Assembly (NCBI GenBank): GCA_016929895.1
Contig: JAFGHW010000027.1
Span: 1-38,621 of the forward strand
Length of the DNA stretch: 38,621 bases
Reading direction: 5' to 3'
Origin: Candidatus Woesearchaeota archaeon
GTDB lineage: Archaea > Nanobdellota > Nanobdellia > Woesearchaeales > ARS49
In this document: in pieces, positions 34,051-35,057 of the stretch
How positions within the stretch are numbered: position 1 is the stretch's first letter
Layout: the number at the start of each line of letters is the position of its first letter
The notes under the pieces: model-generated
What the model was told of the DNA's origin: nothing
The model's input: the letters and a program-made list of their open reading frames with translations, nothing else
Database searches by the model: none
Position numbers and translations under genes: made by a program

Positions 34051-34311
34051 ATGGAACAAAATCAGGAAAACACAGAAGAACAGCCTGCTCAATTATTTGT
34101 TAAGCAGAAATCCGAGGAATTTAAGTTTCAAAAGAAAACTTTCAAGGAAAAATTCAAGCAATTTTGTGTTGAGTGCAAAAGAGTTCTGAAAGTTACTAAA
34201 AAGCCTTCAAGAGATGAATTTAAGAATATTGTTAAGGTTACTGGCATAGGAATATTAATCATTGGTTTGATTGGTTTTTTGATTCATTTTCTTAAAGAGC
34301 TTGTATTCTGA
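34051..34311 (+). CDS. secE: Protein translocase subunit SecE/Sec61 gamma
   Basis: FKQFCVECKRVLKVTKKPSRDEFKNIVKVTGIGILIIGLIGFLIHFLKELVF, single C-terminal TM, located ftsZ-secE-spt5. Confidence 0.92.
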   Translation: MEQNQENTEEQPAQLFVKQKSEEFKFQKKTFKEKFKQFCVECKRVLKVTKKPSRDEFKNIVKVTGIGILIIGLIGFLIHFLKELVF

Positions 34312-34414
34312 GCTGTGGTGCATTGTTTGCCGGAGAAGCGATTAAAGCAGGCGAAACGACCTGAGCCACGCAGTGGCAAAGCTGAGGAGCAGAAGAGGCT
34401 TTGCACCACAGCTC
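34310..34414 (+). ncRNA. Candidate structured ncRNA / stem-closed element between secE and spt5
   Basis: Perfect 13-bp closing inverted repeat GAGCTGTGGTGCA ... TGCACCACAGCTC, internal hairpin GCCAC-GCA-GTGGC, GTTTGCC...GGC(G)AAAC and AAAGC...GCTTT; visibly GC-rich against AT-rich surroundings. Strand not proven. Confidence 0.5.
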
Positions 34415-34428
34415 TAAACCGCAATTCA

Positions 34429-34460
34429 CAGCAAACAAGTTTGCTGAAGTTCTGTTTTTA
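34429..34460 (+). terminator. Hairpin plus T-tract downstream of candidate ncRNA
   Basis: CAGCAAAC AA GTTTGCTG followed by TTCTGTTTTTA. Confidence 0.4.
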
Positions 34461-34565
34461 CCTCTGGCAAAAGCATAACCTTTATAAATGATATTAAAAT
34501 ATAATGTATTATTCACTTCTGCCAGTTAAAATTCAGGTAGGGTGGACCTCAAGAGGTAAACAAAA

Positions 34566-35057
34566 ATGGAAGAACAAAAAACCCATATTTTTGCATTAAG
34601 AACTACTGCAAATCGTGAAGATCAGGTTATGGATTTTATTACATCAAATATCAAGAAAAAAGGATTGGATGTTTTTGCTGTTATCAGGCCTCATGGAATG
34701 AGGGGTTATATTTTTTTAGAATCTGCTAATCGTAGTGCTGCTGAGCAGGCTGCTTTTAATGTTCCTTATGCTAGGGGTATTCTTCCAAAAGAGATTGAGT
34801 ACAGGGAAATCGAGCATATGCTTGAACAGGTTAAACGGGATATTGATATTAGAAAAAATGATATTGTAGAAATCATTTCAGGTCCGTTCAAAAGAGAACA
34901 GGCTAAAATTACGAGATTAGACAAGGCAAAAGAGGAAGTTGTTGTTGAATTGTTAGAAGCAGCAGTTCCTATTCCTATTACTGTTAAGTTAGATGCTGTT
35001 AAGGTTATTAGAAGAGAATCTGAAGAAAAGGAGGACGAGGAAGCGCAAACATTATAA
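34566..35057 (+). CDS. spt5: Transcription elongation factor Spt5 (NusG)
   Basis: HIFALRTTANREDQVMDFI, GYIFLESANRSAAEQAAFNVPYARGIL, KOW VEIISGPFKREQAKI. Confidence 0.95.
   Translation: MEEQKTHIFALRTTANREDQVMDFITSNIKKKGLDVFAVIRPHGMRGYIFLESANRSAAEQAAFNVPYARGILPKEIEYREIEHMLEQVKRDIDIRKNDIVEIISGPFKREQAKITRLDKAKEEVVVELLEAAVPIPITVKLDAVKVIRRESEEKEDEEAQTL

Follow-up and report, generated by a model that had tools for sequence, protein, structure and literature searches.

A probable small transposable element with a covarying folded core lies between secE and spt5 in a Woesearchaeales genome

There is a compact, GC-rich block between the genes secE and spt5 in the window, by which we mean the whole stretch of 38,621 nucleotides that was analysed. 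Pfam identifies SecE, Spt5, FtsZ and L11 among the neighbours of the block. As a first-pass annotation of the same DNA had described, the block is bounded by a perfect 13-bp inverted repeat, GAGCTGTGGTGCA (34310-34322) and TGCACCACAGCTC (34402-34414), and this is the sole non-A-rich perfect repeat of 13 bp with arms within 120 nucleotides in the window. The accompanying claims on composition and folding also hold. The G+C content of the block is 55% versus 34% for the window, equally GC-rich stretches of 103 nucleotides make up about 0.01% of the window, and the predicted fold of the block (-46.2 kcal/mol, z -4.45) is better than those of all 200 shuffled sequences. The 5′ arm does start inside the secE stop codon (TGA, 34309-34311), wherein the last base of the codon is the first base of the block. 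The features of the locus are listed below, where G001 is the sister genome of the window's own assembly (G000), and C4 and C52 are further copies in the latter.

34051..34311, + strand: secE (Pfam PF00584, E 6e-09), a neighbour outside the element whose stop codon abuts the insertion
34303..34310, + strand: left edge of the target site, GTATTCTG, which takes in the TG of the secE stop codon TGA and matches 34414-34421 at 4/8 positions
34311..34413, + strand: whole element of 103 bp, one copy of a dispersed palindromic family, on the strand that carries the conserved fold; C4 is 97% and C52 90% identical within these boundaries, and models R1 and R2 end exactly here
34311..34322, + strand: left terminal inverted repeat, which is the P1 5′ arm, AGCTGTGGTGCA; 11/11 P1 pairs have two-sided changes and 95.9% of cells are paired
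34329..34331, + strand: P2 5′ arm, the GCC of TTTGCC, whose partner is 34397-34399 in 49-51 of the 51 aligned copies; the pairing is GCG/CGC in the three G082 copies
34357..34384, + strand: P4 hairpin, CGAC-C-UGAGCCAC-GCA-GUGGCAAAGCUG, the best-conserved part, with a bulged C and tandem G.A motif between two helices
34397..34399, + strand: P2 3′ arm, GGC, which pairs with 34329-34331
34402..34413, + strand: right terminal inverted repeat, which is the P1 3′ arm, TGCACCACAGCT, with the same P1 covariation as the left arm
34414..34421, + strand: right edge of the target site, CTAAACCG, which matches 34303..34310 at 4/8 positions
about 34479-34489: the TATA-like box of spt5 itself, in an upstream region conserved in G001
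34566..35057, + strand: spt5/nusG, the downstream neighbour (Pfam Spt5-NGN and KOW)

The second hairpin (CAGCAAAC-AA-GTTTGCTG, 34429-34446) and the TATA-like CCTTTATAAAT that had been reported 3′ of the block are both present. This hairpin is not kept in G001 (GGCAAGCAAGTTTATCA), and the spt5 promoter region on its 3′ side is kept there.

In the sister genome, secE, the spt5 promoter region and spt5 are all conserved and the 103-bp block is absent, wherein the empty site reads TATTTTGAAGC versus TATTCTG[AGCTG...CAGCT]CTAAAC in the window's genome. A genome-wide search of the latter reveals the further copies on C4 and C52, in which homology ends at the stem, and a diverged copy (75% identical to the window block) is found in G002, which is from the same genus. 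The C4 locus and the locus of the C52 copy, at a DUF1385 gene, are empty in both G001 and G002, and the insertion at a lipoprotein gene of G002 is missing from the orthologues in the other two genomes.

The C4 copy is flanked by the 8-bp direct repeat CTCTTCAA, which reaches 10 bp if terminal bases are counted. Among the 77 copies with full flanks, 19 have perfect direct repeats of at least 8 bp at the stem ends, compared with 14 of 3038 controls (0.5%) in which the left and right flanks of different copies were combined. The repeats are 8-12 bp long, mostly 8-9 bp, and are placed exactly at the stem ends. Many copies in families f10, f45 and f56 have outer arms beyond P1, and there the direct repeats begin where the outermost stem ends. 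At GAGGTTGG-type ends most of them are 9 bp long, at ends of the GTAACTGC and GACACTG types most are 8 bp, and the few repeats of 10-12 bp probably include terminal bases that match by chance. The first-pass annotation had seen no target-site duplication, which is correct for the window copy (4/8, equalled by 20% of random positions) but not for the family. Since no recognisable duplication is left at the window copy, this insertion is probably old.

The first covariance model was built from four copies (the window, C4, C52 and G002) and the second from 51 copies. Both find the same nine copies in about 792 kb of the window's genome, and the first also finds further copies in G001, G002 and other families of the order. 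There are 24 copies in 729 kb of G145 and at least 17 in G150. By covariance model, the family is present in 21 of the 353 genomes of the order, which represent six families, and its distribution is patchy. An even sample of 371 genomes across the phylum yields matches only in members of the order. Within family f1, only the window's own genus carries the element among the genomes searched. In G150, identical copies lie at the ends of two contigs (L206 and L207, on C12 and C56), which indicates that the family breaks assemblies, and the true copy number is therefore probably higher.

Several other observations concern these genomes. Copy pairs that lie side by side in opposite orientation form large palindromes at L209:78-308 and L247:1501-1720, although L209 starts at a contig end and may be an assembly artefact. 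Several paralogous pentapeptide-repeat-like ORFs with ANLxGADL repeats are found in G145 (L258, L263, L267 and L268), and some are up to 96% identical between contigs. Phage and plasmid records contain no match to the element, and a search of viral contigs for the spaced core pattern found none. Core-pattern matches in bacterial and viral sequences (L040-L043 and L045) were dismissed as 20-nucleotide chance matches that lack the palindrome.

The core spans 85-166 bp with any insert, the mobile unit is about 103-207 bp, and there is no conserved reading frame. Interior motifs are kept across families, and the mobile ends are of at least four types.

T1 ends: GAGGTTGGTGCGAAAGTC, found in f10 and f45
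T2 ends: GTAACTGCTAACA, enclosing a T1-like arm, found in G150
T3 ends: GACAC/GGCACTGT, found in f45
T4 ends: AGCTGTGGTGCA, found in f1

Outer repeats beyond P1 are present in f10 and f45, and their arms can resemble the inner stem, as at L196:3462-3616, where GAGGTTGGTGCGAAA on the outside is similar to the P1 arm GTGCTGGTGCGTAA on the inside. A likeness to P1 is also seen in the outer arms of L216. One G002 copy (L223:3419-3573, on C135) is apparently inside another copy, and there are more hairpin insertions in the P4 loop region. Perhaps these nested palindromes derive from one another.

The conserved structure was examined in alignment A6, which holds 51 copies and supports a structure of 28 base pairs that replaces the RNAalifold structure of the four-copy model. 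In this alignment, 93.9% of the cells are paired, and 22 of the 28 pairs exhibit two-sided changes, of which there are 163 in all. The covariation test that had been proposed on homologues returns strong compensatory change. The covariation score is 0.309 compared with 0.125 for shuffled alignments, calculated for related copies with phylogeny not corrected. All five measures of the fold exceed all 500 shuffles and far exceed the slid controls, in which 28-38% of cells are paired. Because the copies are related, covariation events are less independent than the shuffles imply, and these controls should not be read as probabilities.

P1 has 11 base pairs in all lineages and varies at every pair, and most of the variation is located in this stem. 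P2 is GCC/GGC, or GCG/CGC in G082 copies. P3 is formed as TCC-NNN-GGA or CTC-NNN-GAG and is restricted to the copies and families having that segment. P4 is composed of CGAC, a bulged C, a U-A or C-G pair, the tandem G.A and a variable-length covarying hairpin, and conforms to the motif CGACCYGAGC...GCGAAGYTGAG, in which CGACCYGAG is nearly invariant. The U59-A83/C-G pair covaries and is present in 51/51 copies, the tandem G.A is kept in 49-50 of the 51 (one of its steps is A.A in the window copy), and 7 of the 11 P4 pairs have two-sided changes. The + strand is named as the folded one because the tandem G.A exists on that strand only, and it is also the more stable strand in 38 of the 51 copies. 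Of the helices that had been drawn inside the block, GCCAC-GCA-GTGGC is backed by covariation, while GTTTGCC/GGCAAAC and AAAGC/GCTTT are unsupported. The four-way junction is unsupported as well, for in the 51-copy alignment the GGC at 34397-34399 is the partner of the GCC in TTTGCC.

Various other interpretations of the core were considered and set aside. A kink-turn is ruled out by the single bulged C, where three nucleotides would be needed, and by the U-A/C-G pair between the bulge and the tandem G.A. A conserved peptide is excluded by single-base indels. Counts of GU versus AC carry no information as a strand test once one G-U column is set aside. No Rfam family is matched at gathering thresholds and none of relevance at E<=1, nor was a tRNA found, in agreement with the first-pass statement that the block bears no recognised tRNA, SRP RNA, RNase P or snoRNA signature.

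Dispersed copies, empty orthologous sites and direct repeats exactly at the stem ends together indicate an element of the MITE class. Very probably, then, a small, non-autonomous transposable element that is mobile in Woesearchaeales inserted here long ago to give the block. The core fold of this element is kept by compensatory changes, and its outer ends differ between lineages. The first-pass annotation had favoured a structured ncRNA, with a MITE as the alternative to be recognised by dispersed copies with target-site duplications, and such copies are what the genomes contain. Its structured sequence is real but is transposable rather than a resident RNA.

One possibility, to which we assign a rather low probability, is that this is a MITE of the ordinary kind, its interior being the neutral remnant of an insertion sequence, so that the fold reflects shared ancestry and co-changing terminal repeats. 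The ends of MITEs are generally conserved and their interiors decay. PMC10969869 gives terminal repeats and target duplications as typical of MITEs, together with transcripts that form stable stem-loops. The concentration of variation in P1 fits this possibility, and covariation of P1 alone could come from terminal repeats of a transposon that change together without selection on an RNA. The case for a selected fold would thus rest on P2-P4, where changes are fewer. However, the interior is better conserved across families than the mobile ends, there are two-sided changes in P2, P3, U59-A83 and pairs 62-80, 63-79 and 64-78, and the tandem G.A is retained as noted above. The element also departs from MITE expectations in being GC-rich relative to its surroundings, and no mobilising partner was found for it in the draft genomes.

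The locations of the copies bear on the remaining alternatives. Copies are mostly intergenic. Outside f1, 20 of the 34 eligible copies with T1-type and similar ends are located 38-60 nucleotides from a start codon, most of them 45-52 nucleotides upstream of it, with the genes being simple ORF calls so that these distances carry error. Uniform placement in the same gaps would put 7.4 copies within this range, and none of 2000 simulations reaches the observed number. The outward flanks often carry a purine-rich stretch and a TATA-like box that starts roughly 10-20 nucleotides from the element. This promoter-side pattern may reflect targeting or survival, and both fit the data.

It is very improbable that the palindrome serves mainly to end secE transcription or as a hairpin for 3′ processing of secE. 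A strong hairpin is indeed located right after the secE stop codon and before the spt5 promoter, but G001 manages without the element, and convergent gaps, where terminators would collect, are rarely occupied (7 of the 61 copies outside f1 and none in f1).

That the secE-spt5 region encodes a host small RNA or a cis-regulatory RNA is slightly less probable still. Such an RNA would account for the strong fold and the strand-specific conserved core. It would also suit the window's genus in f1, where copies in co-directional gaps are in sense orientation by 12:2 and, like the window copy, start 0-20 nucleotides after the upstream stop codon. However, orientation is unbiased in the other lineages (12:16), and the element is absent from other f1 genera among the genomes searched. 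The empty site in G001 refutes an RNA resident between secE and spt5, and the copies at unrelated loci with target-site duplications likewise speak against the suggestion that the block is a 3′-UTR-derived RNA.

A few copies are located at gene starts. In G002, a copy (L005:1499-1602, on C5) is read in frame within a lipoprotein signal peptide, where it follows the first two codons and precedes the hydrophobic segment (MK...LAILIILLLVLSAC), and the orthologues in G000 and G001 have a plain signal peptide. The C52 copy (L003:1502-1604) is at the start of the DUF1385 ORF, whose frame continues through it; the ATG with which the G001 gene starts is missing at the matching place in G000, and the start may be in the element or upstream. 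A sequence similar to the Rickettsia palindromic elements, spreading by in-frame gene insertion, would explain these two copies and the fact that adding 8 bp to 97 or 103 bp gives a length divisible by three, but is very improbable given that most copies are intergenic, that unit lengths elsewhere are often not multiples of three, and that the single-base core indels exclude a conserved frame.

For the preferred reading of a non-autonomous transposable element, we searched for a mobiliser. Paralogue clustering found no multicopy transposase among the ORFs of the G000 and G145 sequence examined, and a scan of G145 found T1 ends essentially only at cores and no autonomous partner. Matches to the terminal repeat elsewhere in G000 (L010, L013 and L034) were rejected, as they come without a partner arm or transposase. 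IS6-type transposases (PF13610, the only transposase family searched directly, in draft genomes) score above the cut-off in 5 of 20 element-bearing genomes and in none of G000, G001, G002, G145 and G150, and their loci lack recognisable ends of the element. Draft genomes often lose transposase genes.

The length of the duplications together with the terminal repeats suggests a DDE-type transposase acting in trans. This enzyme would cut at the palindromic ends, and the mobile unit would be pasted into staggered breaks. Insertions beside core promoters or just after stop codons would be those that survive or are preferred. Least certain of these steps, the core may persist through what it does as a folded single strand, in the service of the element itself and not of one host gene. 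This strand could be RNA in transcripts that run through or beside the element, or single-stranded DNA during transposition or replication. Because gene contexts vary and orientation is unbiased outside f1, we infer a function in the element's own cycle in preference to a fixed cis role on host mRNAs. A more speculative proposal, which we regard as possible though well short of probable, is that the core functions as an RNA that binds protein or is even catalytic, and that, having become coupled to several kinds of transposon ends, it is spreading through Woesearchaeales and is targeted to sites beside core promoters.

The BOX and RUP elements of Streptococcus pneumoniae (PMC3049150) are nearest in style to this element. 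They are also small, dispersed, non-autonomous repeats with terminal inverted repeats and target duplications, and their predicted transcript is tightly folded, with the terminal repeats paired to each other (PMC3049150). The organism and sequence are different, and the element described here is distinguished by two-sided changes in most of its pairs (22/28) and by mobile ends that vary from lineage to lineage while the core is shared. BOX is built from modules (boxA/B/C), and an IS has been proposed to mobilise it, whereas none has been found for the Woesearchaeales element. The Rickettsia palindromic elements, as the extract from PMC10969869 presents them, are likewise palindromic and about 100-150 bp long, and a few copies here are similarly in frame at gene starts. 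However, the Rickettsia elements are mostly in frame within genes, whereas the Woesearchaeales copies are mostly intergenic and those of T1 type favour a position upstream of promoters. Sulfolobus SM1-SM4 and other archaeal MITEs in the same extract are also archaeal, non-autonomous and multicopy. These come from other archaea and are compared by description only, and the extract mentions no conserved folded core (PMC10969869). Finally, archaeal members of the IS6/IS26-type and IS6-like sequences make target duplications of 8-9 bp (PMC6807381), and the T3 ends (GGCACTGTTTCC and GACACTGT) loosely recall the consensus GGTTCTGTTGCAAA. We treat this as a lead only, for IS6-type transposases are present in some host genomes but their loci do not carry the ends of the element.

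The family appears to be previously unrecorded, and no paper on such elements in Woesearchaeales was found in the literature searched, which lacked most subscription journals. To our knowledge, little is known of the mobile elements of DPANN archaea. This element joins mobility with a conserved, covarying core, whereas in ordinary MITEs the ends are retained and the interior is lost, and it raises the issue of how a nucleic acid that folds might serve transposition or the host. If the core does prove to be a functional RNA, mobile structured RNAs would form a new class in archaea. Searches for GC-rich structured RNAs in AT-rich archaea are also confounded by the family, as they will pick up the element. 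Its insertion on the promoter side of genes is relevant to the question of how transposons are tolerated by, or targeted to, the compact genomes of archaea.
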